This document shows positions 40,893-59,859 of a stretch of 64,000 bases of DNA, one piece after another. The DNA is taken from the NCBI GenBank assembly GCA_021792755.1, contig JAJYUA010000022.1:1-64000 (forward strand), in the 5' to 3' direction. Under the pieces are notes generated by a model. The model ran no database searches. It was not told the DNA's origin and worked only from the letters and a program-made list of their open reading frames with translations. Positions within the stretch are counted from its first letter, which is position 1, and each line of letters starts with the position of its first letter. The position numbers and the translations under genes were made by a program. The DNA is from Pseudomonadota bacterium. GTDB taxonomy: Bacteria; Pseudomonadota; Gammaproteobacteria; Steroidobacterales; Steroidobacteraceae.

Positions 40893-40905
40893 GGAGACGG
40901 CCGCC

Positions 40906-41220: not shown

Positions 41221-41344
41221 TCAGCCACCTTTCGAGACAAGTCAGTCCGGAAGAAGAAATTTGTGAAAATTGAATGCACTAGTGTGCCGGGTCGCGGGGG
41301 CGCGCGCCACTGCCGGGGACGCTTCCGCTGCGCTCCCACGCCCC

Positions 41345-41596
41345 TCAGAAAGGGCCGAGGACTTTGATGATGAATGCCGCCTTGCCGGCATCGAGTGCCC
41401 GCGCCTCGAGCGTGGCGCGCAGCTCGCTCCTCAATGCCTCGAAAACCTGCTCGTACTCGCCGAATACCTGCGTGCTCAAGCTCCCGGCCACTACCTTGAG
41501 GTCCCGGCGGGCACCCAGCCGGCCGATGAAATCGTGGATCATCGGCGCGAAATCCTCGGCGAGCGGGTACAGGCTGATTTCCACCCCGATGTCCAT
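41345..41596 (-). CDS. YkoF/MTH1187-type thiamine-binding protein
   Basis: An 83-residue ferredoxin-like-fold protein of the YkoF/MTH1187 (DUF77) family, characterised by VEISLYPLAEDFAPMIHDFI and a C-terminal AAFIIKVLGPF. Members bind thiamine or related pyrimidines, and some form tetramers regulating thiamine transport. The gene stands alone by spacing, 125 bases from the ferredoxin gene. No TPP riboswitch is recognised upstream (41597-41640), so regulation by thiamine is not evident. Confidence 0.8.
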   Translation of the reverse strand: MDIGVEISLYPLAEDFAPMIHDFIGRLGARRDLKVVAGSLSTQVFGEYEQVFEALRSELRATLEARALDAGKAAFIIKVLGPF

Positions 41597-41767
41597 CAGG
41601 CGATCATTCTACCGTTTTTCAGAAGGCCGCCCGATTAAGCATGGCGACAGCACCGTGCCGGCGGCTCTGCCGTGGCACCATCCCGGCTCAGCCAGTCTGC
41701 CGGCGATGGGCTAGAATGGCCGCCCCGCGCCCCCTCCCCGCCGTGGTGCGCCGCAGAACAGTATCCA

Positions 41768-42670
41768 ATGACTGGCAAGATTCAAATCCATCAGGTCGAC
41801 GCCTTCACTCTCGAGCGCTTCACAGGCAATCCCGCCGGGGTCGTGCTGCAAGCGGACGGCCTGACGGACACGCAGATGCTGGCCATCGCCCGGGAGCTGA
41901 ATAATGCCGATACGGCATTCATTTCCGCCTCCGAGGGCTCCGAGCACGATGTCCGCGCGCGATTCTTCACCCCGCGTACCGAAGCCGGATTCGTCGGCCA
42001 CGCCACCGTCGCGGCCCATCACGTGCTCTCGGCTTTGCCGAACGCGCCGCGGCGCCTGCGGCAGAAGTCCAGGGCCGGCACCGTCGACATCGAGATCCGC
42101 GGCGAAGGCGAGCAGCACAAGATCGCCATCCGCCAGAATCCACCGCCCCTCGGGCGCGAGCTGAACGATCGGGAGCGGCTGGCTGTGCTCGATGCGCTCG
42201 CGCTCGCCACGGACGACCTGGACACCCGCTGCCCGCTGCGCATCGCCGGCGCGAGCAGCACGCGGTTGCTGATCGGTGTGCGCAGCGTCGAGGCCCTGAA
42301 TCACCTCAAGCCCGACATGGTCCGCCTCACGACGCTGTCGGCACAAGTCGGCGCGGCGGGATATTTCGTGTTCGCGCTCGCGCCGGGAAACGAGGATCAT
42401 CTGACCGAAGCGCGCATGTTCTGCCCGGCGCTCGGCATTGCGGAAGATCCCGTCAGCGGCAATGCCCACGGTCTGCTCGGCGTGTACCTGGTCCAGAACG
42501 GCCTGCTCTCCCACGACCGGCACCGCGCCGCGTTCCGGGGCGTTCAGGGCCGGTGGCTGCACCGGCCCGGACGGGTGGAGGTCGAGCTGGAGATGACCGG
42601 AGGTGCCGTCTCCGCGGTGTGGATCATCGGCCAGGCCGTGTCGGTCTTTCAGACCGAGATGACGCTCTGA
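41768..42670 (+). CDS. PhzF family isomerase/epimerase-like protein
   Basis: A 300-residue protein with the duplicated diaminopimelate-epimerase fold of PhzF proteins. FTGNPAGVVLQADGLTDTQM near the N-terminus, TEAGFVGHATVAAHHVL and AEDPVSGNAHGLLGVYL are family signatures. In PhzF the catalytic acid is a glutamate in an ELxxSETxF motif; here ELNNADTAF has aspartate (D48), so catalysis may differ. No phenazine biosynthesis genes are present, so its substrate is unknown. The 3' end overlaps the ABC ATPase gene by 22 bases on the opposite strand. ATG 41768 is the only sensible start at the N-terminal motif. Confidence 0.85.
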   Translation: MTGKIQIHQVDAFTLERFTGNPAGVVLQADGLTDTQMLAIARELNNADTAFISASEGSEHDVRARFFTPRTEAGFVGHATVAAHHVLSALPNAPRRLRQKSRAGTVDIEIRGEGEQHKIAIRQNPPPLGRELNDRERLAVLDALALATDDLDTRCPLRIAGASSTRLLIGVRSVEALNHLKPDMVRLTTLSAQVGAAGYFVFALAPGNEDHLTEARMFCPALGIAEDPVSGNAHGLLGVYLVQNGLLSHDRHRAAFRGVQGRWLHRPGRVEVELEMTGGAVSAVWIIGQAVSVFQTEMTL

Positions 42671-44202
42671 GTGTCTGCGACCGGCCCGCGTGCCGGCCCG
42701 GCGTAGCGCACGCGGCCTTGCGCGAGCTCGAGTTCGTGCGTGCACCAGCCCGGCCACTCCGACCGCCGATGCACGCTGATCACCACTGCCGTCCCATCGG
42801 CGAGCAGAGGCCCGATCCGCTCGCACAGCTCGCGCCGCGTGGGTCCGTCCAGCCCCGAGAACGGCTCATCGAGCAGCAGCAGGGCCGGACGGCGCACCCA
42901 GGCGCGCGCAAACAGCACCTTGCGCAGCTGGCCGTAGGATAGTTCCCGCAGCGTCCGCCTCGCGAGCCCCGTCAGGCCGAACTGCGCGAGTGCGCGCCGT
43001 GCGGCGGCGCGATCGGCCGATGTCGGCGGATCGCTCAACCCGATGCTGGCATACCGACCCGACTGCACGACCTCGCCGACCGTCAGGCGCTGCGGGTGAT
43101 CGGCCTGCAGATGCGGCGCCACCAGCCCGACACGCCGTTTGAACCGCTGCAGCGGCACTCCGGGACGGATACCGGCGCGCTCGATGCGCCCGCAGGCCGC
43201 GACACCGTGGTCCCCGTAGAGCGTCCTCAGCAGCGTGGTTTTGCCGGAACCGTTGTGTCCGTGCACCACCCAACACTCCCCTGCCCGGATCGTCAGCGAC
43301 ACCCCGCGCAGGGCCACGTGCTCATCGAGATGAACGCAGGCATCGCTCATGCGGATCAGGAGCCTGCCGGCTGCCGAACCGGTGCGGATCGAAGATGACA
43401 CACGCGAGCGCGTCGGGCGACCCTCCCCCCCCAACCAACGCGCGAGCAACCCGGCGCGCACGGGGCCGCGATAGGCCACGCGACCGTGTTCCAACACGAG
43501 GGCATGCGTGGCGGATGACGGCACGTCCTCGGCTCTGTGGGTGGAAAGCACCCAGGGAAGGCGCGAGCGGGCGGTACTTTGCAGCCATCGCAGCGCGCGC
43601 TGCCGATTGGCCTCATCCAGGCCGTTGAGCAGCTCATCGAGCAGCAACAGCTTCGGCCGGCACACCAGAGCCCGCGCCAGCAACGTCATGCGCCGCTCAC
43701 CGTAGGAGAGCGTGAGAAACCGCCGCCGCGCGAGCGGATCGAGCCGCAGCCGGCGCATCATCGCGGCGACGCGCCTGCGATCGGCTCCGTCCGGCACATC
43801 GAGCGGGATATCGGTGCGGTACAGACCGGTGGCGACCACTTCCTCGGCGGTGTGATTCCAGCGGTAACGCTCGTATTTGTCCTGGCGCTCCGGGCCCAGA
43901 TAGCCGATCTGCCCCTGCACCTCCTGTGCCGTAGGCCATACCTTGCCCTTCCAGAGGTACTGTCGCGTGTCCCGGCCCGAGGTGGGCCAGACGGCCCCCG
44001 CGACCAGCTTCAGCAGCTGGGTCTTGCCAGCCCCGTTCGCGCCGGCGAGCACCCAGCGCTCTCCGGGCCGGATCGTCCAGCTCACCCCGTCGAGCACGCG
44101 CCGAGCGGCGCGTGTCAGCGACACTTCGCGCAGCCGCGCCTCGATGAATTGTCTGTCCGCGCGGGGTCTGTCCGCCGGGGAGGCATCGGTCGGCTTCGCC
44201 AT
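42649..44202 (-). CDS. ModF-like dual ABC ATP-binding protein
   Basis: A 517-residue protein with two fused ABC ATPase domains and no membrane domain. The first Walker A is GANGAGKT (about 54-61), with signature LSYGERRM and LLLDELLNGLD. The second is GHNGSGKT (about 313-320), with LSYGQLRK and LLLDEPFSGLD. This duplication and the AWVRRPALLLLDEPF style match ModF, linked to molybdate use in E. coli though not a proven importer part. No molybdate permease genes are near. The gene is convergent with the PhzF-family gene and divergent from the phosphotransacylase gene. ATG 44202 opens the only continuous frame. Confidence 0.85.
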   Translation of the reverse strand: MAKPTDASPADRPRADRQFIEARLREVSLTRAARRVLDGVSWTIRPGERWVLAGANGAGKTQLLKLVAGAVWPTSGRDTRQYLWKGKVWPTAQEVQGQIGYLGPERQDKYERYRWNHTAEEVVATGLYRTDIPLDVPDGADRRRVAAMMRRLRLDPLARRRFLTLSYGERRMTLLARALVCRPKLLLLDELLNGLDEANRQRALRWLQSTARSRLPWVLSTHRAEDVPSSATHALVLEHGRVAYRGPVRAGLLARWLGGEGRPTRSRVSSSIRTGSAAGRLLIRMSDACVHLDEHVALRGVSLTIRAGECWVVHGHNGSGKTTLLRTLYGDHGVAACGRIERAGIRPGVPLQRFKRRVGLVAPHLQADHPQRLTVGEVVQSGRYASIGLSDPPTSADRAAARRALAQFGLTGLARRTLRELSYGQLRKVLFARAWVRRPALLLLDEPFSGLDGPTRRELCERIGPLLADGTAVVISVHRRSEWPGWCTHELELAQGRVRYAGPARGPVADTQSVISV

Positions 44203-44389
44203 GATTCTCGGTTACGAATGGGGAAAGTGCCATTTTTGCACAGTCCGCGGCGCCGGGTGCGCGGGGCCGCAGCGGCGCAGACCGGGCCCCGGAAGGCGCA
44301 GGCCGGTGCACCGCACGGACTTGTACGGATTGCCGCCGGCCGAGCCGACGCGCATGATTCGATGCCGATGCCCATGGAATATCATTGCT

Positions 44390-45376
44390 GTGAGAGCGGC
44401 TCGCGAACCTGGCAATCCTGAAGATCTCGAACGGCGCACGGCCGGTTCGCACGAGGAGCCCCGCCATCTCCAGCAACTGATCGACAGGGCACGGGAGTTC
44501 GGAGCGCTGCGCACGGCGGTGGTCCATCCGACGGATGAGGTCTCGCTGCTGGGTGCGATCGAGGCGGCCCGTCAGGGGCTGATCAGTCCGGTCCTGGTCG
44601 GTCCGGGACAAGCAATCCGCGAGGTCGCCCGGGCGGCGCAAATCGACCTGTCCCCTTACTCCCTCGTCGCCGCGGAGCACGACTCGCAAAGCGCCACGCG
44701 TGCGATCGCGATGGCCCGTGCCGGGGAGGTGCAGGCCTTGATGAAAGGCGCGCTGCATACCGATGAGCTGATGCATGCCGCCGTCGATCCCGAGCACGGG
44801 CTGCGCGCCGTCCGCCGCGCCAGCCACGTCTTCGTCATCGAGTCGCCTCAATACCCCCGGCTGTTGTTCATCACCGATGCCGCTATCAACATCTATCCGA
44901 CGCTCGAAGACAAACGCGACATCGTGCAGAATGCGATCGATCTCGCCCGGACACTAGGGGTGCGCAGCCCGCGCGTGGCAATTCTATCCGCCCTCGAGCT
45001 GGTCACATCCAGGATCAAATCGACCATCGAGGCCGCCGCGCTGTGCAAAATGGCCGATCGGGGGCAGATCGAGGGCGGCGTGCTCGACGGGCCGTTTGGC
45101 TTCGACAATGCGGTCTCGAGCGAGGCCGCCGCGACCAAGCACATCGTGTCCCCCGTTGCCGGCCGAGCCGACATCTTTGTCGTTCCCGACATCGAAGCGG
45201 GCAATATGCTTGCCAAGCAGCTCGAGTACCTTTCCGGCGCACGACTCGCCGGCGTGGTGCTCGGCATGCGCGTGCCGATCGTCCTTACCAGCCGGGCCGA
45301 TGACACGGCGGCGCGCCTCGCCTCGTGCGCGCTTGCGATTCTCTGGGCACATCGACGGCCGCTCGACGTCGCGTAG
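44390..45376 (+). CDS. Phosphate acetyl/butyryltransferase family protein
   Basis: A 328-residue phosphotransacylase of the Pta/Ptb family, converting an acyl-CoA and phosphate to acyl-phosphate and CoA. The family segments are recognisable: [52 protein letters not shown] and [16 protein letters not shown]. Also present are [15 protein letters not shown] and [19 protein letters not shown]. It resembles the C-terminal half of bifunctional enoyl-CoA hydratase/phosphate acetyltransferases, but only the transacylase half is present. GTG 44390 is chosen and an in-frame ATG at 44354 is the alternative; neither has a strong ribosome site. No acetate or butyrate kinase gene is adjacent. A broken AAA+ gene follows. 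Confidence 0.85.
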
Positions 45377-45394
45377 CTACAGCCGGCACAGTGG

Positions 45395-45839
45395 ATGCCG
45401 GCGACTCGATCCCTCTTTGCCGCCGAAGCGCGCCTCGATCCGAGTCCGCTCGTGGGTCCACCGGGAATCGGCAAGACGATCTTTTCAAGCCGCATCGCCG
45501 GGCGGCTCGGCGTGCGCATGTCGGTGGTCTTCGCGGACGGCACGCAGGACGCCATGCGCTTGTGAGGCTCCGACGCGCGGTGGAGCAACGCACGCACCGG
45601 CATGGGGTGTTCGCGCGCGCTCGCGGGCGGCGAGTCCGCCGCACCCGTGCACGTCGTCGGCGAACTCGACAAGCTCGCGCCGGCGAGTGGCAGCAATCGC
45701 GACACGCCGATCAAACCCTCGTCGGACTTGCTGCCGCCGGACTCCGCGCCGCGCTCCATGGATATGTCGCTGCAGCTCGATATGCCCGACGATGGTCGCG
45801 GCTGCGCGCTTCAGGTCCCACAAGACTCTTGCTCTCGGA

Positions 45840-45840
<1 letters not shown>
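45395..45840 (+). pseudogene. AAA+ ATPase pseudogene
   Basis: A degenerate AAA+ ATPase fragment. From ATG 45395 the frame reads VGPPGIGKT (Walker A) and [17 protein letters not shown], then hits an in-frame TGA at 45563. The same frame continues through [26 protein letters not shown] (decayed Walker B) and [13 protein letters not shown]. It is cut off where it meets the katG 3' end, so the C-terminal half and the arginine-finger region are missing. The pattern suits Lon- or CbxX-like ATPases, although which subfamily is unclear. A single stop plus truncation points to a pseudogene rather than a sequencing error. Confidence 0.6.
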
Positions 45841-48480
<2,640 letters not shown>

Positions 48481-49419
48481 GTGCTGACTTCGCTCAAGCA
48501 ACTGCGCTATCTGGTCGCCCTTTCCGAGCAGCTCAGTTTCACACGGGCGGCGGACTGCTGCTTCGTCACTCAGTCGACGTTGAGCGCCGGGGTGAAGGAG
48601 TTGGAGGACTTGCTCGGCGCGCAACTGGTGGAACGGGACAGGCAAACCGTGTTGATGACGCCGATCGGGCTGGAGGTGGTCAAACGGGCGCGGTCCATAC
48701 TCGCGGCGAGGCAGGATCTGGTGGAAGTGGCCGCCGGGGCCGGGAAGCCGATGACAGGCCTGCTGCGGCTCGGTGTCATCCCGACCATTGCGCCCTTCCT
48801 GCTGCCGCATTCCGTGCAGCTGATTCAGCAGCGCTATCCCGCGCTGCGTCTGGCACTGCGCGAGGACCTGACGGCAAGTCTGCTACTGCGGCTCGAAGAC
48901 GGCCAACTTGATTTTGCCCTGATTGCGCTGCCCTACGACACGGCGAACCTGCTGGTGGCACCGCTCTTTGACGACGACTTGTGGATTGTTGGGCGTAACG
49001 ATGATGCGGAGGTGAAGGCGAAAACTGTCAAGATCACGAAGTCGATGACAGACCGACTGCTGCTCCTGGAGGAGGGACATTGCCTGCGGGATCATGTGTT
49101 GCATGCGTGTGGCGCGTCGATCCGCCGGTCATGGGAAGGCGTGGAGGCCAACAGCCTGCTGACGCTGGTGCAGATGATCGAGTCCGGGCTAGGTATCGGC
49201 CTGGTGCCGGAAATGGCGGTGCAAAGCGGCCTGACGAAGAGCCCCAACCTGCTTGCGCGACCGCTCGCCAAGCCCAGCCCCAGGCGCAAGATCGCCCTCG
49301 TGGCACGGCGATCGACGACGCGGCTGGCCGATCTGAAGGCGCTGGCCGAAGTCATTCTGATGGATGGCGGTCGCTTTAGGAAAAAGCGCGCCTGTACGTT
49401 GACATTTCCGCAGTCATGA
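48481..49419 (+). CDS. oxyR: Hydrogen-peroxide-sensing LysR regulator OxyR
   Basis: A 312-residue LysR-family regulator. The winged helix-turn-helix occupies residues 5-64 (LRYLVALSEQLSFTRAADC, VTQSTLSAGVKELEDLLG). The effector domain carries the diagnostic redox pair C201 and C210 in LLEEGHCLRDHVLHAC, equivalent to C199 and C208 of E. coli OxyR, so a peroxide-driven disulfide switch is expected. GTG 48481 is the start. It is transcribed away from katG, its likely target. The C-terminal tail (FRKKRACTLTFPQS) is longer than in E. coli. It is the last recognisable chromosomal gene before the integrated element. Confidence 0.93.
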   Translation: MLTSLKQLRYLVALSEQLSFTRAADCCFVTQSTLSAGVKELEDLLGAQLVERDRQTVLMTPIGLEVVKRARSILAARQDLVEVAAGAGKPMTGLLRLGVIPTIAPFLLPHSVQLIQQRYPALRLALREDLTASLLLRLEDGQLDFALIALPYDTANLLVAPLFDDDLWIVGRNDDAEVKAKTVKITKSMTDRLLLLEEGHCLRDHVLHACGASIRRSWEGVEANSLLTLVQMIESGLGIGLVPEMAVQSGLTKSPNLLARPLAKPSPRRKIALVARRSTTRLADLKALAEVILMDGGRFRKKRACTLTFPQS

Positions 49420-49835
49420 GCAATGCAGCTGGTCTTGGCCAAAGTGACCGCTTGGGGGCCGCAACCGGCCGCTCGCTGGTGCGTTTCGAGCGATTCCGCA
49501 TGTCTCTTTCCGGCCGACTGCCGTCCGTCGGTCTGCATCAGACCGGGTCGGGTCATCCCCCCTATCCGCCCGCCTGCGGGGTGTGGAGACGCAAGGAAGG
49601 CAGCAGCCGGCGCCGTGCTCGTCGGCAGGAGCGGGTTCTGCGATAGCCCCTCGAGGCTTACCGGTTCCAGCAGCGCGCCGCGCTCGTCCTCGCAGAGGTG
49701 GCGGATGCGGCCCGGTCCTTCAGGGAGCTCGCTCACCCCTGCCATTCTCCGTGGCGGACAACTGCGCCAAGGCTGTGCCACCGGGCACGGGCACATTCGG
49801 CGATGCGCTCAGAGAAGTGATTTGTAAAGGTTTAT
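49420..49835. other. No gene recognised between oxyR and the attachment site
   Basis: About 415 bases. Several frames are open, including a minus-strand one running back into oxyR, but none has a ribosome site or known motif. This is the chromosomal flank immediately outside the integrated element. Confidence 0.35.
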
Positions 49836-49922
49836 TGGCGCGCCCGGAGGGATTCGAACCCCCGACCACCTGGTTCGAAGCCGAGCCGAACCCCTCATGG
49901 ACGCCACTAGACTCCAATAAAC
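49830..49922. repeat. 9-bp inverted repeat bracketing the tRNA fragment
   Basis: GTTTATTGG (49830-49838) and CCAATAAAC (49914-49922) are perfect inverted copies, the first sharing the TGG that encodes the tRNA CCA end. They may reflect integrase or excisionase binding around the crossover, or may be chance. Confidence 0.45.
49836..49882 (-). tRNA. 3' fragment of tRNA-Arg(TCG): element attachment site
   Basis: Read on the minus strand, this carries the 3' anticodon half-stem with loop CTTCGAA (anticodon TCG), the T-arm around GGTTCGAATC and the 3' acceptor strand with the encoded CCA. The 5' half (acceptor 5' strand, D-arm) is absent, and the anticodon 5' half-stem does not pair beyond two bases, so it is not a functional tRNA. 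A 3' tRNA half is the standard footprint of tyrosine-integrase elements. The break in homology is on the high-coordinate side, so the element extends to the right. The intact tRNA-Arg should lie at its far end. Confidence 0.75.
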
Positions 49923-49954
49923 TCAATCACTTAGTGGTGTGAAGCGGCGGCCAC

Positions 49955-49995
49955 TGGTGCCAATTTGAGGCACCAAGTGTGGCAATAGTGTGGCA
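49955..49995. other. Integrase-arm-type repeats at the element end
   Basis: TGGTGCC (49955-49961) and GGCACCA (49969-49975) are a perfect inverted repeat. AGTGTGGCA occurs at 49976-49984 and again at 49987-49995, spaced 11 bases apart and so on the same DNA face. Repeats of this style next to att sites usually are arm-type binding sites of tyrosine integrases. Confidence 0.5.
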
Positions 49996-50066
49996 GAAAT
50001 CGGTCCTCGCCGGTGGAACGAACACCGACGGGGGCCGGGCAAGCAACACCGGGAAGGGGTGCCACC

Positions 50067-50231
50067 ATGCCCGTCGCCGATCCTACTCGCCCGCGACCGC
50101 CGGCCGCAAAGCCGCACGCCGCACCGCCACCGCGTCCGCCTACGGCGGTACGCGATCGGCTGCTCTGCGCTCGCTACCCGCGGATTTTTGCGGAGCGTCA
50201 TCGGACACGCGCGGGCCGGCGACACCCGTGA
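50067..50231 (+). CDS. Small proline-rich protein coupled to metallophosphoesterase gene
   Basis: A 54-residue open frame beginning MPVADPTRPRPPAAKPHAA, rich in proline, alanine and arginine, with GAAGGGG upstream of the ATG. Its TGA overlaps the GTG start of the metallophosphoesterase (GTGA), which suggests translational coupling and that it is a real leader-type gene. No family was recognised. It may serve mainly to allow translation of the downstream gene, which lacks its own ribosome site. The biased composition means a chance frame in GC-rich DNA cannot be excluded. Confidence 0.4.
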   Translation: MPVADPTRPRPPAAKPHAAPPPRPPTAVRDRLLCARYPRIFAERHRTRAGRRHP

Positions 50232-51004
50232 AAATCCGCGTCCTGTCAGACCTGCATCTCGAATTCTCCGGCTGGCGCCCACCGCCGTGCGATGAGGACG
50301 TCGTAGTCCTAGCAGGCGACATCGCCGAGGGCCGAGCAGGCATTGCCTGGGCCCGCAAATATTTTCGCGACCGGCCAATCGTTTACGTCCCGGGCAACCA
50401 CGAGTACTACGGCCGAGATTTCGATGAGCTCCGCGAGGGCCTGCGCGAGAGCGGGCGCACGCATGATGTGCACGTGCTGGATGGCGACGAAGTGATCGTC
50501 GACGGCGTCCGCTTTCTCGGCGCGACGCTGTGGACCGACTTCGAAATCTCCGGGAGCGACCTGAAGTCGGTAGAAGCCGCGATGCGCCGCTGCCAGAAAG
50601 GCATGACCGACTTTCACGTCATCAGGCGGTGGGGCGGTGCCCTCCGCCCCGAGGACACCCGAGAGATTCACCAGGCGCAGCGGGATTGGCTGCAGCGCGC
50701 CCTGGCGGGCTGCACCTCATTCGGCGAAGGGTTTGCCGGTCCCACAGTCGTCGTGACTCACCACGCTCCTTGCGCGCGCAGCATCGCGCCGCGGTTTGCG
50801 GGCGACCCGCTAAATCCCGCCTTCGCATGCGACGTCACCGACTTGATGGGACCGGCAGTGCAGCTTTGGATCCACGGCCACACGCACAACTCGTCGGACT
50901 ACATCGAGCGCGGCACACGCGTGATCTCCAATCCCAGGGGGTATATGCCCTACGGCCCGAATCCGGACTTCGACCAAATGCTGATCGTTGAAGTGCCGAC
51001 ATGA
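50228..51004 (+). CDS. Calcineurin-like metallophosphoesterase
   Basis: A 258-residue metal-dependent phosphoesterase. The dimetal motifs occur in order: SDLHLEF (DxH), LAGDIAEG (GD), VPGNHEYY (GNHE), THHAPC and IHGHTHNS (GHxH). The fold resembles small bacterial phosphodiesterases and nucleases. The substrate may be a cyclic nucleotide, a nucleic-acid end or a phosphoprotein, and sequence does not decide. GTG 50228 is the start, and the strand-1 motif begins directly there. It overlaps the upstream proline-rich ORF and the next small gene (ATGA, 51001), forming a three-gene unit at the element's left end. Similar genes are common passengers on plasmids and integrative elements. Confidence 0.85.
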   Translation: MKIRVLSDLHLEFSGWRPPPCDEDVVVLAGDIAEGRAGIAWARKYFRDRPIVYVPGNHEYYGRDFDELREGLRESGRTHDVHVLDGDEVIVDGVRFLGATLWTDFEISGSDLKSVEAAMRRCQKGMTDFHVIRRWGGALRPEDTREIHQAQRDWLQRALAGCTSFGEGFAGPTVVVTHHAPCARSIAPRFAGDPLNPAFACDVTDLMGPAVQLWIHGHTHNSSDYIERGTRVISNPRGYMPYGPNPDFDQMLIVEVPT

Positions 51005-51213
51005 GCGAAGGCAACCGGTCCGGCGAAAGCGCACCGCTGCAGAAACTGGCCGAAGCCTGGTGGGCGGAGATTGACGAAGCCGAGCGAGCGCATTGGATGG
51101 AAAGCGCTGAAGCACTATGGGGTAAGGGAGCCACCGTCAAGGACGCTTACTTGCGCGCCGCCGCCGTCGGCGCGATCCGCGAAGTGATCGAGAAGGTCCG
51201 GCGGGGTGGGTGA
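51001..51213 (+). CDS. Small hypothetical protein, coupled to metallophosphoesterase
   Basis: A 70-residue protein with a helical, tryptophan-containing core (LAEAWWAEIDEAERAHWMESAE). Its ATG overlaps the metallophosphoesterase stop as ATGA, so it should be co-translated. No family was recognised. The sequence is charged and soluble with no signal or membrane segment. A role tied to the phosphoesterase is suggested by coupling only. Confidence 0.55.
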   Translation: MSEGNRSGESAPLQKLAEAWWAEIDEAERAHWMESAEALWGKGATVKDAYLRAAAVGAIREVIEKVRRGG

Positions 51214-51345
51214 TGGCACGCGCCAGGCTCCATCACGTGACGCAGGCACGGCTCACAGACGAGGGCTGGTCATGGGGGGAGTCTCGGGCACTCCGCGCCC
51301 TGCGTGCCATCCCGGCACTCGGAGGGCGGGCGTCCGTCCCGCCGC

Positions 51346-51537
51346 CTACTTTCCGCGGCCCGCGGGGCGGAGAACCTGAGCGTACTTCACGAGCAGATCA
51401 TCGAGCGCCTCGCGCAGGTAAGCGGATTGGGGCACCCGTGTCAGATCGGAAAGCTTGCGCAATTGGGCGACCGCCTCCGGAGCGTAGTACCCCGCCATCT
51501 GCGTCTGATTGCCCTTCGATTTTGCGACCAAGATCAC
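51346..51537 (-). CDS. Ribbon-helix-helix protein
   Basis: A 63-residue protein of the ribbon-helix-helix type (CopG/MetJ/Arc class). The strand QTQMAGYYA is followed by two helices (PEAVAQLRKLSDLTR and SAYLREALDDLLVKY). Such proteins bind DNA as dimers and often serve as antitoxins or element regulators. GTG 51537 is used, with TAGGAGT five bases upstream. No toxin gene adjoins it. A 6-bp inverted repeat lies in the divergent region to the lipoprotein gene, which makes transcriptional control of that gene plausible. Confidence 0.75.
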   Translation of the reverse strand: MILVAKSKGNQTQMAGYYAPEAVAQLRKLSDLTRVPQSAYLREALDDLLVKYAQVLRPAGRGK

Positions 51538-51547
51538 ACACTCCTAA

Positions 51548-51575
51548 TTGCAATGACCTACGTGTAGGTTATACT
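51548..51575 (+). promoter_or_regulatory. Lipoprotein promoter with overlapping palindrome
   Basis: TTGCAA (51548-51553) and TATACT (51570-51575), 16 bases apart, form a promoter for the downstream lipoprotein gene. The inverted repeat ACCTAC-GT-GTAGGT (51556-51569) fills the spacer, a place where the divergent ribbon-helix-helix protein could repress both genes. Confidence 0.5.
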
Positions 51576-51623
51576 GCTTACACAGTGATGACCATATTAG
51601 CACGTAGCCTGAAGGACAGCATC

Positions 51624-52019
51624 ATGAACGCCTGCCGCACCGTAATCCTCTGCCTCGCCGCCCTGGCGGCTGTCTCGCTCGCCGCGTGCTCTCGACCGGG
51701 CAGCGCCTACGTCGGTACGTGGGTCGGTGTCGCCCCCCACCACGACGTAGCGGTCATCACCCGCCACGGCGGCGTGTTCGCGATCCAAGAGCAGGGTCGC
51801 ACCGAGGTCGACTACTACCACCTGGATTCCCAGGGCGATTTGACCGACGGGTTGGCCGTCGTCGCAATCGATCCGAGGAACGGCGACCTGACCGTGCACA
51901 GCCCCTTCGGGGACGAGCAGATGCACCGCCTCCGTCGGCTCTCTCCAGCCGCCCTTCGCGCGCTCGAGGCGCAGCGCAAAGCACGGAAAGCGAAATCTGC
52001 CCCGATGCCCCCGCTCTGA
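51624..52019 (+). CDS. Small lipoprotein
   Basis: A 131-residue predicted lipoprotein. The signal sequence ends in LAALAAVSLAAC, so lipidation should occur at the cysteine (about residue 21). The mature part begins SRPGSAYVGTWVGV and is a short strand-rich domain (AVITRHGGVFAIQEQG, DYYHLDSQGDLTDG), followed by an arginine/lysine-rich tail. No family was recognised. The signal peptide is nearly identical to that of the 573-residue lipoprotein 300 bases downstream, suggesting duplication or exchange of the export segment. ATG 51624 follows GAAGGACAGC. Confidence 0.65.
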   Translation: MNACRTVILCLAALAAVSLAACSRPGSAYVGTWVGVAPHHDVAVITRHGGVFAIQEQGRTEVDYYHLDSQGDLTDGLAVVAIDPRNGDLTVHSPFGDEQMHRLRRLSPAALRALEAQRKARKAKSAPMPPL

Positions 52020-52053
52020 CCTTCTCCCTTTCACCTCTCACCCGGAAATCTAC

Positions 52054-52302
52054 ATGCGCACCACGACCAATGTCACCCGTATCCGCACCCGATCCACTTC
52101 GACCGCTGCCGCGGCACCGACTCCCGCCGCACTCGTGACCGCGACCGACGCGCTCCAGGACGCCGAGGCGCTCGTCACCACTGCGATGAACTCATTGTGC
52201 GCCGAAGGAAGCAGCCCCGAGGCGGTCACCCTCGGCTTCGCCCTCGAGAGGCTCCGTACCGCCTTGGAGTGCGTCGGCGGGGCGTCGGCAACCGAGGATT
52301 AA
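52054..52302 (+). CDS. Small hypothetical protein
   Basis: An 82-residue protein between the two lipoprotein genes on the same strand. A threonine/serine/arginine-rich beginning (TNVTRIRTRSTSTAAAAPT) precedes a helical segment (ALVTATDALQDAEALV and ALERLRTALECVG). No signal peptide, membrane span or family was recognised. Spacing of 34 bases from the first lipoprotein gene and 16 bases to the next suggests one operon. Coding is supported mainly by its fit between two real genes. Confidence 0.45.
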   Translation: MRTTTNVTRIRTRSTSTAAAAPTPAALVTATDALQDAEALVTTAMNSLCAEGSSPEAVTLGFALERLRTALECVGGASATED

Positions 52303-52318
52303 CGACAGGACCACGACT

Positions 52319-54040
52319 ATGCCCACGATCAAATCTCGCATTCTCAGCATCTTCCTCGCCGCCCTCGCGGCCGTCTCCCTCGCCGCGTGCGGCGGCGGGG
52401 GAGGCAGTGGCGGGGCTTCCAGCCCCCTGAGTTCGACGGGGGACGCGCCGGCCAGCGCTAATCTCGCGGCTTGCACCGACGGCAACTACGATCCCGCGAC
52501 CTACCAGGGTATCGCGCCCTGCCTGACCGTGACGGGGCTCGCGAGCGGGCAGTCGGTCTCCGTGTCCGACGGCAGCAATACGCTCACCGAGACGGCCAAT
52601 GGGACCTACACCTTCCCGGGTCTGGCCAATGCCAGTGAGAACGGTGCGGCGGTGCAACCGACAGTGGCATTCTCCATCACGGCCACCACTGGCGGTGCCA
52701 CATGCTCGCTGTCGGGCGGCGGGGCCGGGCCGAACAACCCCAGCGCAACCGGGTATGAGACCAGTGCACTGTGCGCGAAGTACCCTGCGGTGAGTCCGGG
52801 CATGCCGAAGGTCACGACGATGCCGGGAGTGTCCGGGACAGCGCAGGTGATCGCCTCGCCGACCATCGTGCCGGTCTACATCTCGACGGGATCGCTCGCG
52901 ACCGGTAATGAGTCGAACGACGCAACGTACCTCAACCAGCTCGTGAACTCCCAGGAGTGGGGACTGCTCTCGCAGTACGGCGTCGGCGCGGCCACGGTCG
53001 ATGCAGGCGTGACGGTCAATCCTGGTTCCTGGTCGCAGTACCACGACGTCACGCCGTCGGACCTCAGCACCATCGCGCAGGACGTGCAGAGCCAGGGCGT
53101 CACCCTGACCCCGAGTACGGTGCTCGTCATCTACCTGCCGGTCGACATCTACGTCGGACCCGCTGCGGATACCTACGGCACCGGCCATACCGGCACCGTC
53201 GCGGTGGGGAGCGTCGACGTACCCTATGCGCTTGTCACGGACAACAACACCAGCGGCTCCGCGTACGCCGCGTCCTATAGCGTTTACTGGGAGGCTGAGG
53301 CAAACTTGGTTAATGATGTGACCGGTGCCACGGACCAGGGATATGCCTGGATGAGCGCGAACCCGGACCTTTGGCTCGGTGCGGGTGTCTACGGCACGAC
53401 CGGCACGGAGACGATCGGCATCGGCACGCTGTGCGCGCCGGCCGCGGTCGCCGCCGCGGATATCTCCACTGGCGATATCGTGCCGATCTGGTCGCAGTCG
53501 GACGCGGCCGCCGGCCGCGATCCCTGCCAGCCGCAAGACGTGGTGTCCTATAACTCGGACGGCTCGCAGTCCGGCACCCAGGTGGAGCTCTCGAGCTCGA
53601 CCGCGCCGTTCACCGGCGTGGTCGTGACGCAGGGACTGTCCACGGTCACCAGCACCCTCGGCGGGGTCTCGCGGACCGACCAGGCGATCGTCATCGCGCC
53701 CGGCCAGTCGGTCACCGTGCAGGCGCAGGTATTCAGCACCCAGCCGATCCCGGACCAGGGGATAAGCGTCAACGTGGTCTCGTACATCGGACAGTCGGAC
53801 GGCGGGGCACTCAGCAGCAATTCCCCGACCTTCCCGTCGCCCTTGGTGTCGGTCGGTCCGGTGACGAACGTGACCCGGCCGAGCGCCAAGGACGGAGTGG
53901 GCGGCGTGGCCGTGAACAACGGCGACACCATCGAGTTCACGATTACCGCCTCGTCCAGCCCGTTCAAGGGCATGTACGTGCTCGAGGTCAACGACTGGCC
54001 GACCCCAATCGGGGTCGTCGAGGGCACCACCTGGCAGTAG
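52319..54040 (+). CDS. Large lipoprotein of unknown function
   Basis: A 573-residue predicted outer-membrane or periplasmic lipoprotein. The signal ends in LAALAAVSLAAC and is followed by a GGGGGSGG linker. The body is rich in serine, threonine, glycine and valine, with beta-strand character and few charges. Repeated Ig-like segments are suggested by SVSVSDGSNTLTETANGTYT and SVTVQAQVFSTQPIPD. YWEAEANLVNDVTG and LCAPAAVAAADI interrupt the pattern. No catalytic motif or known family was recognised. A surface role such as attachment or exclusion during conjugation is conceivable for such a protein on a mobile element, but that is speculation. A strong hairpin follows at 54164-54190. Confidence 0.7.
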   Translation: MPTIKSRILSIFLAALAAVSLAACGGGGGSGGASSPLSSTGDAPASANLAACTDGNYDPATYQGIAPCLTVTGLASGQSVSVSDGSNTLTETANGTYTFPGLANASENGAAVQPTVAFSITATTGGATCSLSGGGAGPNNPSATGYETSALCAKYPAVSPGMPKVTTMPGVSGTAQVIASPTIVPVYISTGSLATGNESNDATYLNQLVNSQEWGLLSQYGVGAATVDAGVTVNPGSWSQYHDVTPSDLSTIAQDVQSQGVTLTPSTVLVIYLPVDIYVGPAADTYGTGHTGTVAVGSVDVPYALVTDNNTSGSAYAASYSVYWEAEANLVNDVTGATDQGYAWMSANPDLWLGAGVYGTTGTETIGIGTLCAPAAVAAADISTGDIVPIWSQSDAAAGRDPCQPQDVVSYNSDGSQSGTQVELSSSTAPFTGVVVTQGLSTVTSTLGGVSRTDQAIVIAPGQSVTVQAQVFSTQPIPDQGISVNVVSYIGQSDGGALSSNSPTFPSPLVSVGPVTNVTRPSAKDGVGGVAVNNGDTIEFTITASSSPFKGMYVLEVNDWPTPIGVVEGTTWQ

Positions 54041-54163
54041 CCATCACAGCAGCCGGGGCGATCGCCCGCCACCCCGGTGGTGTATCCCGCCAAGTCGGAA
54101 TTATGGGCTGATCGTATGTCGCGTATCCGGATACGGAAGTTGCGGAGTCAAGAGACACTGGAA

Positions 54164-54190
54164 CGCCGGGGCGGCATTGCCGCCCCGGCG
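54164..54190 (+). terminator. GC-rich hairpin after the lipoprotein operon
   Basis: A perfect 12-bp stem (CGCCGGGGCGGC and GCCGCCCCGGCG) with a three-base loop ATT lies 124 bases after the lipoprotein stop. No T-run follows. It also sits upstream of the exoribonuclease gene and could affect its leader instead. Confidence 0.5.
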
Positions 54191-54235
54191 GGAGACACCC
54201 ACACCGTGGGTGCGCCTTATCGACAGGAGCGTTAG

Positions 54236-54730
54236 ATGCGACTATTTCCCGATATCGAGTTTTCATCGCACAATCTCTTGCAGGCCGAGCTCATCAGTCT
54301 CGGCCTCGTCGCCGAGGACGGCAGGGGGTGCTACCTCGAGCGCGAGGAGTTGCCGCTCGCCTGCTCGCATTGGGTCCATGCGAACGTGTACCCGCTATTG
54401 GACCGTGGAGAGGCGGCCGTCTCGGAAGTCGAGTTTACCTGCCGGCTGCGGGCATTCATGCGCTCACCCCCCGAACCGCTCATCGTGGTCAATCATCCCG
54501 GCGACAAATTCCTTTTGCAGGTCGCTCTCACAGGCTTTCGACTGCCGCGCTCGGCTCTTGCCGGCTGCGGCCCGATCCCCGCGATGCGCTGGCAGGTCGA
54601 GGACAGCGCCGAGCTAGTCGCGCGAATCGAGCGATGGTTTGAGCCGCGGCCGGCGGCCCGCCGGCACCACGCACTCACCGATGCCCGGGCGCTGAGGAAC
54701 GCCTGGGTGGCGATGTATGAGGACGGCTGA
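54236..54730 (+). CDS. 3'-5' exoribonuclease-like protein (Rv2179c/DUF5051 type)
   Basis: A 164-residue protein of the RNase T/DEDDh superfamily. The first acidic motif is DIE (residues 6-8). LLQAELISLGLVAEDG follows as in Rv2179c-type enzymes. The last motif is HHALTDARALR (about 141-151), with the catalytic histidine and aspartate of DEDDh. A middle aspartate is not certain. Family members trim RNA 3' ends and are frequent in phages and plasmids. ATG 54236 follows ACAGGAGCG. No membrane segment is present, so it should be cytoplasmic. It lies between the lipoprotein operon and a large secreted unknown. Confidence 0.7.
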   Translation: MRLFPDIEFSSHNLLQAELISLGLVAEDGRGCYLEREELPLACSHWVHANVYPLLDRGEAAVSEVEFTCRLRAFMRSPPEPLIVVNHPGDKFLLQVALTGFRLPRSALAGCGPIPAMRWQVEDSAELVARIERWFEPRPAARRHHALTDARALRNAWVAMYEDG

Positions 54731-54866
54731 CGAAGCCTCCCGATGCCCCAATAGCCTTCCAGCCGGGTTACCGGGTCGCGATTTTGCGAGGCCCGCCTAT
54801 CTTTTCTTGGGATCAACCTGCCAGGATTGCCGCCGCGCCGGTAACGGCAGCGCCAAGGGCAGGCAA

Positions 54867-55937
54867 ATGGGCGGAAATACTAGGCTCTCGAGCATGGTGC
54901 AGTCCCCTGTCGCGAGAGGGGCGTTGGCGCTGGTGTGCCTCACCACGCTCACCGGATTCGCGTCCTGGTTCGGCCGACCGCTCGTGAACGGCTACTACGT
55001 CTCGCGCGGCGGTGTCGCCAGCATTATCATGGTTCGGCTTGTCGAGGCTCCCCGCGGACACCTGAGCGGGGCGCTGGTCGTGACCGCCGTTGATCAGAGC
55101 AGTTCAGCCCCTGGTGTCACCCGCCGCACACTCCAAGGCAGCATCGCTGGCGGCAATATCACGCTGAGGACACCCGGCCTGTTCGGACTACTCAGCGCCG
55201 TGTACGTCGGGACGCTCGACGGCGATCGCCTGACGTTGAGTCTGCAGGGACACTCGCCCTTTACGCTTTACCTCACGTCCGCGACCGGCTATCAGGACCG
55301 CCTCGCCGCACTTCAGCGCATTCAATCGAACATCAACGCGACACTTTCGGCGATGCAGAGCGTCAAGAACGCCGCCAAGCTTGCTCTGCGCCTTCACGCA
55401 GCACTCGAGCGCTACATCGCATGGGGGCAGGAGAGAATTGCACGCCAAACAGGCGTACGTCTCTGGTGGGCCAAAAAGGCCAAGTACTATGATGCGTGTC
55501 TCGCCACGATCCGCAAACTCGATGCTGATGGGGTGTGGACAGCGAATTGGGGACCCTGTCCCGAAACCGTCCTCTACGACTACCATGCCCGAGACCGGGA
55601 GGTAGCCGATATTCGTACTCTCCAACAACAGGATGCCGCGCAGGTCTCGGCAATCCAGCAGCTAATTATCGAGGTGCCACTCGACGCGCGCGCTGCACAG
55701 CGGCAATTGCAAGCCGTGTGTCCGAGTGCTCCTCATCCAAAGGCGTGCAATCAATACCTATGGCGCTTTGTCGCAGCAGAACCGACGCTGGTACCCGCCT
55801 CCGAGGCCGCTACATTCCATGCTCTCGCACCTCGTGTCGCTAATGCCCTGGCCGACGACGCAGAAGTCGGCGATACCACCAACCCTCGGCTCGCGCATAT
55901 TGCTACCGAGATCAAGACCCTGTACTGGACGCGCTGA
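54867..55937 (+). CDS. Exported protein of unknown function
   Basis: A 356-residue protein. An N-terminal hydrophobic stretch (about 15-38, GALALVCLTTLTGFASWFG) is either a signal peptide or an anchor. The first half is strand-rich (GYYVSRGGVASIIMVRL, VTAVDQSSSAPGV, GNITLRTPGLFGLLSAVYVG) and the second half helical, with several cysteines. No family was recognised. ATG 54867 follows AAGGGCAGG. It is convergent with the two-gene unit at 55958-57189. The codon use is less GC-biased than in the chromosome, as in the rest of the element from here on. Confidence 0.6.
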   Translation: MGGNTRLSSMVQSPVARGALALVCLTTLTGFASWFGRPLVNGYYVSRGGVASIIMVRLVEAPRGHLSGALVVTAVDQSSSAPGVTRRTLQGSIAGGNITLRTPGLFGLLSAVYVGTLDGDRLTLSLQGHSPFTLYLTSATGYQDRLAALQRIQSNINATLSAMQSVKNAAKLALRLHAALERYIAWGQERIARQTGVRLWWAKKAKYYDACLATIRKLDADGVWTANWGPCPETVLYDYHARDREVADIRTLQQQDAAQVSAIQQLIIEVPLDARAAQRQLQAVCPSAPHPKACNQYLWRFVAAEPTLVPASEAATFHALAPRVANALADDAEVGDTTNPRLAHIATEIKTLYWTR

Positions 55938-55957
55938 TCTCTTCAGCGCATCCGTCG

Positions 55958-56509
55958 TTACAACCGGGATAGAGCCGCCGCGTAAGCCTCATGCGGCGCG
56001 CAGGGTTTTGCCAGCGCGCGCAGGGCGGCCCGAGTATCATCCGTCGCATTGGATGGGACCCAGATGTACACGGATGTCGGGCACCGGATGACCCGCCGGC
56101 CGGCGGCATCTTCATGCAGTTCCACTTGGATCAGGGCATCGCGCTCGAAATACACGCGCGCAATGACCGGCCGGCGCTCCGGATCTCGAGGCGACCAGCA
56201 GTTGCCGCCGAGCGAATCGGCGAGCGCAGCCCAGTCTGACGCCAAGAGTTCTTTCTGCTCGGCGGGCGACGCAAAACCCCGTGCGATGAGATCAAGACCA
56301 ACGCCCTGGCCGAGAGTCAGTACGACCAAGTCCGGGTCGGCTGACACCTGAAGGTGCTGCTTCAGATCATGAGGCGATCCTGGTCCGGAGTACAGAACAC
56401 TCCGTACGCGCCCCTCGCTGAGTCTGCACGTGAACGTGCCGAATGTGCCGCTCTTCTCGGTAATGTCTAGGACCCTGGGGCTGAGCCGCGGTATGGCCTG
56501 GTCAGTCAC
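55958..56509 (-). CDS. Hypothetical protein, coupled to upstream membrane protein
   Basis: A 183-residue soluble protein with no family recognised. Segments SPRVLDITEKSGTFGTFTCR, DLVVLTLGQGVGLDLIARGF and VIARVYFERDALIQVELH suggest an alpha/beta fold. Its ATG overlaps the stop of the upstream gene (ATGA at 56506-56509), so the two products are probably made together. The partner is a single-pass membrane protein, which hints at a membrane-attached complex. Function unknown. Confidence 0.6.
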   Translation of the reverse strand: MTDQAIPRLSPRVLDITEKSGTFGTFTCRLSEGRVRSVLYSGPGSPHDLKQHLQVSADPDLVVLTLGQGVGLDLIARGFASPAEQKELLASDWAALADSLGGNCWSPRDPERRPVIARVYFERDALIQVELHEDAAGRRVIRCPTSVYIWVPSNATDDTRAALRALAKPCAPHEAYAAALSRL

Positions 56510-57189
56510 TTCGGCCCGAGACCATCCTGAAACGAGATGCTCTTCTCAACCAGTGCGCAGAATCGCGAGGCAGCCGAAACATGCGAGCAAAACCGCTTGG
56601 CTTGCGCGCGCCCCTGTAGCATGGCCACGTCGTTCGCTGCATTCAGGACAGCTGCCGCAAAGCGCTTCGAAGTGCTGCTCTCGCCGGACCAAATCGCTTT
56701 GCGTGCCTCAACAGCCTCGCGTGTATATGCGATGGCCAGATATGTCTTGTCTCCCTTCCGGCCAAATAGATGCCCTCTGCCGTATCCGATCTCGAAGTCG
56801 GTCGCCAGCGGTATGGTCCCCGGATTTCCAATTTCCCACCGAAGCACGCCATGGATATCTCTTGCGGCAGTGCGAACCGGATCGGAGCCGCTCGCCCATA
56901 CGTATACGCGAAGCGAAGTGTGATTTCCCGGCTGACTGATTTCACTCATCGGAACCTGTGCGCCGCTCGGCATGGCAAATGCGAAAGCCGCAGTGACTCC
57001 TGGTGCGCCCTCTCGATCAAGCATGCGTGCAAAGCCGGAGGTAGGAGCCGGCTTGCTGGGTGGACTCGGCAGGAGCAACACGAATGCGATGAGCGCGATG
57101 GACCCCAAAATGACCCAGAACGCGAATTTGCGCACGCGACGCGTTCTTCGGGCATTGGTTGTCTTTTGATCGAGACCCACGGTTTTCAT
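56506..57189 (-). CDS. Single-pass membrane protein of unknown function
   Basis: A 227-residue protein. ATG 57189 follows AGGGGAATGCA. A basic N-terminus (TTNARRTRRVRKF) precedes one membrane segment (about 21-40, AFWVILGSIALIAFVLLLP) and a periplasmic or cytoplasmic domain of about 170 residues. That domain has two cysteines near the C-terminus (RFCSHVSAASRFCALV). No family was recognised. Translationally coupled to the next gene by ATGA, it forms a two-gene unit convergent with the exported protein at 54867-55937. The layout, with a membrane component and a cytoplasmic partner, is typical of small accessory modules, but no effector motif is seen. Confidence 0.6.
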   Translation of the reverse strand: MKTVGLDQKTTNARRTRRVRKFAFWVILGSIALIAFVLLLPSPPSKPAPTSGFARMLDREGAPGVTAAFAFAMPSGAQVPMSEISQPGNHTSLRVYVWASGSDPVRTAARDIHGVLRWEIGNPGTIPLATDFEIGYGRGHLFGRKGDKTYLAIAYTREAVEARKAIWSGESSTSKRFAAAVLNAANDVAMLQGRAQAKRFCSHVSAASRFCALVEKSISFQDGLGPK

Positions 57190-57313
57190 TGCATTCCCCT
57201 GGCGCTCGAGCGGCTTAGTGTGTGTTCTGTTGCCCGTCGATCCTTCCACTCTGAGTCGGCCGTGTGACGCGTTACGCAGCCTGGCGCGTCACACGGCCTG
57301 ACGGTCGACGGCC

Positions 57314-57871
57314 TTACGTCAGCCGCAGATTCTCCAACAGGGCCAGTGTCGCGTCGGCACTGGATACAGCACCCTTCATCCGTCCGAGTCGGTCCTCGCA
57401 CAGCTTGAGATATTCTCGGATGAAGTCGTCGCTACGAGTCAGAAACCGCTCTCGGACATCCAATGGCGCATCCTTGAGAGGCACCGTCTCTGTTCGACGC
57501 TCTTGGCTCAACGCCGCTGGCTCGCGAGTGAAATACAATCCCCATCGCCCCGACCTTCGCTCAAGAGACACGCGTTCAATGCGCTGTGTGAACGCCACAA
57601 GCACTGCGGCAACCATTTCCATCCCGGTGTCGCCGAAGTTGCTCGGTGGGGGATTGAGGACGAAAGTCGTGAACGAGATACCAAAGCCTTCGCCGAGGCG
57701 CTGCGCCCACGTATCGAGCTGGACAATACGTTGAGCGACGGCATCCTCGTATCGCGTGAGCTGCGACTGTTGCGGGTAGAGGAGATCCGCTTTGAATGTG
57801 AGATTCTTGGCGCGATTGGCCGAAGAAGCTGCAGAGTTTGCGCCCGCAAGAGCGCGATCTTGAGTCGACAT
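57314..57871 (-). CDS. Hypothetical protein
   Basis: A 185-residue mostly helical protein. ATG 57871 follows AAAGGCTTTAAAC. NRAKNLTFKADLLYPQQSQL, QRIVQLDTWAQRLGEGFG and LDVRERFLTRSDDFIREYL suggest a helical bundle with a middle strand-rich part. No family was recognised. The frame is open upstream into a region that contains one arm of a 67-bp imperfect direct repeat (58033-58099), but that part has no initiation site. Confidence 0.5.
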   Translation of the reverse strand: MSTQDRALAGANSAASSANRAKNLTFKADLLYPQQSQLTRYEDAVAQRIVQLDTWAQRLGEGFGISFTTFVLNPPPSNFGDTGMEMVAAVLVAFTQRIERVSLERRSGRWGLYFTREPAALSQERRTETVPLKDAPLDVRERFLTRSDDFIREYLKLCEDRLGRMKGAVSSADATLALLENLRLT

Positions 57872-58032
57872 GTTTAAAGCCTTTCGAAGCGTCAGCCTCG
57901 AATTGAACCCGCCGAAATTGGCGAGAACAACCTTCCGGTCGATGTCGATGCTATGTGGAGTACGACTCGCTGTCAAACTGCGGCTTTGCCGTCCCTCGTC
58001 GCGCATGGCACCTGCCGACCTCGTCGAAATGC

Positions 58033-58099
58033 GCTCACCACCCAGGGGATTGCTCACGCGGATCCCGAGCGCCCGGGCCTCACCCTCCGCGCGCTGTCG
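58033..58099. repeat. 67-bp imperfect direct repeat, copy 1
   Basis: This segment matches 59125-59191 at roughly 80 percent identity by eye, with CCCAGGGGATTG and ACCCTCCGCGCG as identical cores. On the minus strand both copies encode a similar phrase (ALGIRVSNPLGGER versus ALGFRVVNPLGGER). The two copies bracket the PD-(D/E)XK-like gene and the small membrane protein gene in direct orientation. Confidence 0.65.
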
Positions 58100-58116
58100 T
58101 GGTCGTCGCTTGCCGC

Positions 58117-58632
58117 CTACGGCAACTCTTCTGCGTGCGTCACTTTGCCGTATCGCCCGATCAAGCCCTTGTTCCCCAGCATTGAGCGCCGCACCAAGGG
58201 GGTGCCGCTAAATCTCTTATCCTTCCTCCGGGCCTTCGCGTAATCTTTTGCCCTCAAGTGCCCGATCCGCGACTGCCTGTAATCCGGTCCTAGCTCGATC
58301 AGCAACAGTTCTGACCATCGTCCTTTGAGGCGGGTGCTGCGCCCCCGTTTGTTTTCATGGGAAATCACCTTGACTTGGATGCGCGCGCCGCCTTCCACAA
58401 GATCAAATCCTGGATTTGCACTACGCCGGCCACCTCCAATTTTCTTCGGTGCACGGCCGCGCTGCTCGAGGTGCTGCAGTGCCATAAATTCCCCGATGCG
58501 GCCTATCAGGTTATCGTTTCCGCCCATGCGCTTCGGATACTTTTCGCCAACTGCGCGAAGCGCTGCACGTGCCTTAAGGTAGACATCGATCGCTTTCTGA
58601 ATCTCGGCGTCTATCGCTTGCGTCGCAGTCAT
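58117..58632 (-). CDS. PD-(D/E)XK nuclease-like protein
   Basis: A 171-residue protein with a restriction-endonuclease-like pattern: IGEFMALQHL (E48), GFDLVEGG (D77) and RIQVKVIS (Q86-x-K88), the typical E...D...(E/Q)xK layout. A basic stretch KRGRSTRLKGRWSELLLIEL follows, which suits nucleic-acid binding. No methylase or specificity gene is present, so restriction-modification is unlikely. A nuclease or solitary DNA-processing role is possible. It lies between two copies of a 67-bp direct repeat with a small membrane-protein gene, which suggests a two-gene cassette. Confidence 0.6.
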   Translation of the reverse strand: MTATQAIDAEIQKAIDVYLKARAALRAVGEKYPKRMGGNDNLIGRIGEFMALQHLEQRGRAPKKIGGGRRSANPGFDLVEGGARIQVKVISHENKRGRSTRLKGRWSELLLIELGPDYRQSRIGHLRAKDYAKARRKDKRFSGTPLVRRSMLGNKGLIGRYGKVTHAEELP

Positions 58633-58697
58633 CTTCGGTCCCCAGTTCGCCCTATCCGCCGTTCCGGTCGTGGTAGCGCCCCCGTTGCGCCAATCTC

Positions 58698-59790: not shown

Positions 59791-59859
59791 CAGATCTCGG
59801 TTCTGACCTGCCCAAATACGCTACGCCCCTCCTCAAACTCTCGCGCGAGCAATGTCATC

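Follow-up and report, generated by a model that had tools for sequence, protein, structure and literature searches.

We identified a 27.4-kb putative integrative and mobilizable element (IME), E1, whose attR site is with high probability (roughly 90%) the tRNA-Arg(TCG) fragment at positions 49836-49882 of the window, as we call the whole 64,000-nucleotide stretch of DNA that was analysed. According to this reading, E1 lies beside an older, decayed element, E0, and would transfer by means of a borrowed Trb-type secretion system. The boundary is clean and could be placed fully from raw sequence, with both attachment sites, the empty site of a relative and the stacked older element all located.

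The attachment core and the other end of E1

The features that define the end of E1 within the window are as follows.

49831-49882, minus strand: attR core of E1, consisting of the tRNA-Arg(TCG) 3' part (49836-49882, 47 nt) plus 5 bp, 52/52 identical to C8:104870-104921
49883-64000: right-hand part of E1, running on to C28:65513 and then, through a 127-bp overlap, into C8

The fragment on the minus strand is 47 nt long and corresponds to tRNA positions 31-77. The initial annotation had placed a tRNA-Arg(TCG) 3' half at 49836-49995 and listed the T-arm, the acceptor 3' strand and CCA as its parts; these are all present, together with the anticodon loop and the 3' strand of the anticodon stem, which it had omitted. 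It had also expected tRNAscan to reject this copy, and in keeping with that ARAGORN called no tRNA gene in the window. When the source genome was searched, an exact 52-bp repeat was found, window 49831-49882 being identical at 52/52 positions to C8:104870-104921. The intact tRNA-Arg(TCG) at C8:104840-104916 contains this second copy of the core, and the 3' half is confirmed. The lack of any second copy of the 47-bp core had been named beforehand as evidence against an element; the identical copy on C8 removes that objection. Within the window, the next best place for the 52-mer reached 29/52. Two more core matches in the source genome, both at 90%, fell in an intact tRNA-Arg(ACG) at the edge of contig C40 and in an orphan 3' half on C8.

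A tyrosine integrase of 400 codons starts 111 bp beyond the intact tRNA-Arg(TCG) on C8 (Phage_integrase 79.4 bits against a cut-off of 27.1; phrog_1, integrase). Such a pair, an intact tRNA-Arg(TCG) with an adjacent tyrosine integrase, is what had been proposed to lie beyond base 64000. The further claim that the fragment is the left end of an element in the window's orientation, with the element to its right, is upheld by both junctions and by the integrase on C8.

C28, the contig to which the window belongs, has a length of 65,513 bp and thus extends 1,513 bp past the window, and C8 ends at 116843. Placed in the joining orientation, C8 and C28 share their terminal 127 bases exactly, and a 615-bp query around this point detected no third exact copy (scores were computed for 40 of 92 first-look candidates). 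The two contigs meet within trbJ, whose frame stays open across the join, and a sister element, E2, on contig C11 of the source genome aligns across the same point in one piece at 81%. Joined by overlap alone, C8 and C28 make up one predicted element, E1, with 27,426 bp between the cores. Its two ends carry direct repeats of the 52-bp core, one of which is the end of the target gene.

Insertion by a tyrosine integrase at the 3' half of a tRNA gene is standard. In this case, the integrase would have put E1 into the 3' half of tRNA-Arg(TCG). Because the incoming DNA would have brought an identical 3' half, the tRNA gene would have stayed intact on the integrase side, and the displaced 3' half would have become the fragment at the other end. 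E1 probably landed at the left attachment site of E0, leaving two insertions in a row.

The tRNA-Arg(TCG) site in relatives and the DNA left of the fragment

The tRNA query matched in 29 of 30 genomes, the source genome included, and 12 stretches from eight of them were compared. Contig C338 of genome G008 is an empty site, in which DNA matching window position 45331 and below starts no more than 60 bases after an intact tRNA-Arg(TCG); it thus supplies the uninterrupted relative that the initial annotation had recommended for comparison. This genome is 70% complete, and its second tRNA-Arg(TCG) contig, C178, has about 1.5 kb extra before the same chromosome. In both G003 and G006, the tRNA and an integrase (86% and 91%, respectively) were found on one contig and a 3' fragment with the same right end on another. 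The conserved chromosome starts about 150 bp past the fragment in G003; the G006 fragment is followed by about 2.8 kb of other DNA. In addition, G011 has the tRNA with an integrase (84%) and G012 has the tRNA with a decayed integrase. The tRNA-Arg(TCG) gene is a landing site used repeatedly in this genus.

We also observed a second tRNA-Arg 3' piece in G003 (L075:4451-4563, contig C52), which lies just past the intact fragment and before the conserved chromosome. This piece is split in its T-loop by a 75-bp palindromic insert made of hairpins.

To the left of the fragment, the window holds the following features.

40001-45376: conserved chromosome, directly after the tRNA in G008:C338
about 45392-49830: E0, an older and now decayed element of the same tRNA site, absent from it in G003 and G008:C338, with relics at both edges
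45392-45784, plus strand: AAA-ATPase relic with one in-frame stop, whose counterpart stands at the right end of sister elements
45840-48110, minus strand: open reading frame that we take to encode a katG-like catalase-peroxidase
48481-49419, plus strand: open reading frame that we take to encode an oxyR-like regulator
49593-49769, minus strand: E0 integrase relic, with E values between 4e-6 and 0.002 when compared with five family integrases

We conclude that the stretch of about 4.4 kb at 45392-49830 is a decayed older element, E0, and not plain chromosome. The E1 integrase matches window 49608-49775 on the minus strand with E = 7.5e-5 genome-wide. In the comparison of the relic with five family integrases, three of five control regions gave no match, and the other two matched larger integrase-like genes already known from the genome-wide search. 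At the opposite edge, the AAA-ATPase relic is 61% identical over 131 aa to the copy in E2 and 53% over 133 aa to that in G006. The first bases after the core are similar to the left ends of the G011, G003 and G006 elements and not to that of E1 itself, as judged by an anchored test, devised after the similarity had been seen and based on simple letter shuffles, in which 0 (G011), 2 (G003), 11 (G006) and 639 (E1's own left end) of 5000 shuffles did as well. Unanchored, the likeness is weak, with corresponding counts of 10, 89, 96 and 132 of 1000 shuffles.

The katG-oxyR pair is the probable cargo of E0, and delivery of these genes by E0 is suggested. A katG match was found in 29 of the 58 genomes of the genus search, the source genome included, and neither G003:C52 nor G008:C338 has a katG at the tRNA-Arg site. 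The same frequency of katG, together with the lack of a second tRNA fragment at the left edge of the stretch, would fit an ordinary chromosomal region with katG-oxyR that some relatives have lost here. However, each edge carries the relic of a gene that stands at one end of sister elements, with order and strand as expected, and the source katG is at most 74% identical to those of the genus and 68% to that of G003, as against 88-91% for the G003 flanking DNA at the site. We therefore consider plain chromosome unlikely and retain the older element. No distal attachment site of E0 is recognisable in the window, where the second-best match to the core is 29/52, and this site is gone. With respect to the definition of a CIME, E0 has lost its integration and transfer genes, only the integrase and ATPase relics being recognised, but it has not kept both attachment sites.

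Gene content of E1 and its route of transfer

E1 contains 28 open reading frames as modelled with a simple codon score. Family matches were obtained for an integrase, a Gp49/HTH pair resembling a toxin-antitoxin system, a DnaB-N and AAA protein, a MobP relaxase, a NikA-like protein, TrbJ, TrbL, a PilV-like protein and a metallophosphoesterase, and several other proteins match no family. Those located in the window, with one protein shared among relatives, are listed here.

50228-51004, plus strand: metallophosphoesterase gene (Pfam Metallophos on the longer open reading frame; phrog_1649), close to where E1 ends on the right
52319-54040, plus strand: predicted lipoprotein, function unassigned, common to E2, G003:C52 and G003:C69 at 62-69% identity
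60545-62578, minus strand: PilV-like pilin, with a weak Pfam Shufflon_N match (19 bits against a cut-off of 27.5)
63151-64000, continuing to 64788 on the contig, minus strand: trbL (VirB6-type; Pfam TrbL 57.4 bits against 25.9)

The relaxase scores 286 bits with TraI_MobP_relax against a cut-off of 250 and also matches PF03432. The NikA-like protein is over its Pfam cut-off, and its match to the TraJ model is weak. TrbJ (VirB5) reaches 57.7 bits, under the NCBIfam cut-off of 100.55, and the TrbL_P match of TrbL is likewise under the NCBIfam cut-off. Comparison with the frame of three relatives revealed a frameshift near the 5' end of trbL, and therefore the E1 copy may be impaired. The conjugation genes that had been reported to the right of the fragment include this gene (63151-64788) and the PilV-like gene (60545-62578). 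The metallophosphoesterase has a copy in E2 with 56% identity, and the lipoprotein at 52319-54040 matches no Pfam family over the cut-off. PADLOC gave weak or partial matches on E1 and nothing more, and among ten proteins compared with PHROGs only the integrase and the phosphoesterase were named. No IncP-type nick consensus was found in the NikA-side intergenic region. Across three copies of the PilV-like protein from different elements, the first 300 residues are nearly constant and the middle is variable.

The sister element E2 (C11:889-16011, L016) houses a relaxase, TrbJ (87%), TrbL (87%) and a PilV-like protein (74%), colinear with E1. A search for its attachment site on C11 found none, the best match to the Arg core being 30/52. 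The initial annotation had regarded the same right-hand gene order in relatives without the tRNA fragment as counter-evidence. This order does occur without the fragment in E2, and only there; at the tRNA-Arg site, the fragment and the adjoining 240 bp or so are found together in G003 and G006. We read E2 as a sister element at another place.

The only mating-pair parts among the 28 modelled open reading frames are TrbJ, TrbL and the PilV-like protein. In the source assembly there was no match to VirB4 (PF03135) or to the coupling protein, for which one model, PF02534, was used. Therefore, E1 is classed as an IME, and from its gene content it is best read as such and not as a self-transmissible element. 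It has a site-specific integrase, terminal direct repeats and a relaxase of its own, and it lacks a complete mating-pair system; the complete type IV secretion system that would mark an integrative and conjugative element (ICE) is missing from E1 as assembled across the contig join. PF03135 is present in 36 of the 58 genomes of the genus search, and the source genome is among the 22 misses.

It could be argued that E1 is in fact a self-transmissible ICE and that the assembly lacks its central conjugation block, which would belong between C8 and C28, since both contigs end within E1, the source genome is a 96% complete draft and another of its contigs, C19, resembles a complete Trb system. Nevertheless, the contig ends overlap exactly over 127 bp, trbJ is open through the join, E2 is colinear across it, and PF03135 and PF02534 are unmatched in the genome. 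We rejected this possibility on the overlap, the colinearity and the two missing families, and regard it as highly improbable.

As an IME, E1 would most likely transfer through a Trb-type secretion system borrowed from a helper, into which its own TrbJ and TrbL would be fitted. A Trb system like that on contig C69 of G003 is likely to be the best helper candidate. In that system TrbD, E, J, L, F, I and G were recognised, TrbB was recognised in part and TrbC was not recognised. Its TrbJ, TrbL and PilV are 88%, 76% and 78% identical to those of E1, respectively, and no relaxase on G003:C69 matched either of two queries.

The source genome also has a 3.1-kb contig (C19:1-3152, L018) with trbJ and trbL that aligns with G003:C69 over nearly its full length at 81-83%. 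C19 is closer to this complete Trb system than to E1, and therefore the helper could be present in the source genome yet unassembled.

A more speculative and rather doubtful extension is that E1 acts as a pirate, having taken exchangeable parts for contact with the recipient (TrbJ, TrbL and the PilV-like pilin) from a complete Trb element within its genus. If this were true, E1 would rebuild the machine of its helper by replacing subunits, alter the choice of recipient and bypass exclusion. In the portions of the literature that were searched, no description of an IME-borne PilV of this kind was found.

Right ends, the integrase family and known systems

The initial annotation had noted direct and inverted repeats beyond the fragment. 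These could be located precisely, and the right ends of G003 and G006 retain them.

49914-49932, minus strand: one of the two halves of the inverted repeat on either side of the core in the reconstructed attP, with 13/14 pairing with the left end of E1
49955-49975: inverted pair TGGTGCC...GGCACCA, conserved in G003 and G006 and probably an integrase arm site
49976-49995: direct repeat AGTGTGGCA, two copies, probable integrase arm sites, at the same places in G003 and G006

The 9-mer starts at 49976 and 49987, and these are its sole two copies in the window on either strand. In the circular junction rebuilt as it would form on excision of E1, an inverted repeat surrounds the core, with pairing at 13/14 positions in E1, 13/14 in G003 and 12/14 in G006. 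For each of the three, 0 of 300 simple shuffles paired as well. The best-pairing stretch of G003 and G006 overlaps that of E1 and is shifted by a few bases.

The fragment and about 240 bp of adjoining DNA are 89.7% identical to G003 over 290 columns and 95.8% to G006 over 287 columns. A deletion could leave a lone 3' half, but we rejected a decayed tRNA gene or chance repeat with no element involved as scarcely credible, because the 52/52 repeat runs 5 bp past the tRNA at 100%, the adjoining 240 bp or so recur together with the fragment in the right ends shared by G003 and G006, and an integrase stands at the intact tRNA copy.

Relatives of the E1 integrase were also found at other tRNA genes. 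A tRNA gene lies upstream of the integrase at 24 of 26 loci scanned, namely Arg(TCG), Thr(TGT), Lys(TTT), Lys(CTT) or Arg(CCT); of the two exceptions, L091 has no tRNA and L036 begins inside a tRNA-Lys. In a quick tree of 19 integrases (21 loci were given and 2 identical rows dropped), the tRNA label changes 4 times, which is the minimum possible, and 0 of 200 shuffles gave so few changes. All four Arg(TCG) integrases group in a single branch (SH-aLRT 100), and Thr(TGT) occurs in two places. Two Bacteroidales matches at 24% (L098 and L099) were left out of the 17-locus integrase set, and the loci overlap to the extent that the two genome collections share some records.

The closest parallel to E1 is found in the IncP islands of Brucella suis and Burkholderia glumae, which are described as having a MobP relaxase, TrbJ, TrbK, TrbL and a guaA target and have been proposed to subvert IncP helpers (PMC5704250). 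Like E1, they combine a tyrosine integrase, a MobP relaxase, a TraJ-like protein, TrbJ and TrbL with no full secretion system, according to the parts of that report that cover them. They differ in that they insert at the 3' end of guaA and not at tRNA-Arg(TCG), are 12.7-14.1 kb in size compared with 27.4 kb, and carry trbK between trbJ and trbL, where E1 has no separate gene (PMC5704250). In E1, the trbJ-trbL stretch is occupied by what in three relatives is the 5' part of the trbL frame. In addition, E1 has a PilV-like gene, whereas the passages of PMC5704250 describing the islands mention none. By analogy, E1 would work like an IncP island; it has another target and no gene between trbJ and trbL, and therefore we do not file it as one. 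GISul2 also resembles E1 in its TrbJ, TrbL and integrase and in the lack of a full secretion system, but in the same passages it has no relaxase of its own, targets guaA and has TrbK (PMC5704250). Accretion of a younger IME beside a decayed element at the same target gene has been described (PMC5704250), and the arrangement of E1 beside E0 is similar, with the difference that E0 has no recognisable distal attachment site.

Another comparable replicon is pHLHK22 of Laribacter hongkongensis, a mobilizable plasmid of 15.7 kb that, like E1, has an annotated TraI/MobP relaxase and trbL as well as a trbJ-like stretch. Its annotation also includes an LPD7 protein and MobB, and no other Trb genes. Unlike E1, it is a free plasmid with no tyrosine integrase annotated, and over part of their length its TrbL is 30% and its relaxase 27% identical to those of E1. 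Eleven plasmids with a TrbL relative, typed as mobilizable or non-mobilizable, were considered as incomplete systems and dropped, as two of the three inspected had a full trb set. Overall, the arrangement represents ordinary biology in an unusually well-preserved state.

Other loci in the source genome resemble parts of this arrangement. The tRNA-Arg(ACG) 3' half at C8:1966-2014 (L004, L006), whose intact tRNA is at C40:1-81 (L003), marks a second island, at a different arginine tRNA gene, and an integrase-like gene lies by it at C8:669-1322. Contig C21 (C21:1-1274, L036) starts in the 3' part of a tRNA-Lys(TTT) and continues into a gene of the E1 integrase family that is interrupted by a single in-frame stop. 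Finally, at C52:6146-6800 (L019) of the source genome, a 134-bp trbJ-like piece lies at the contig end, no more than 450 bp after a tRNA-Ala(CGC) gene.
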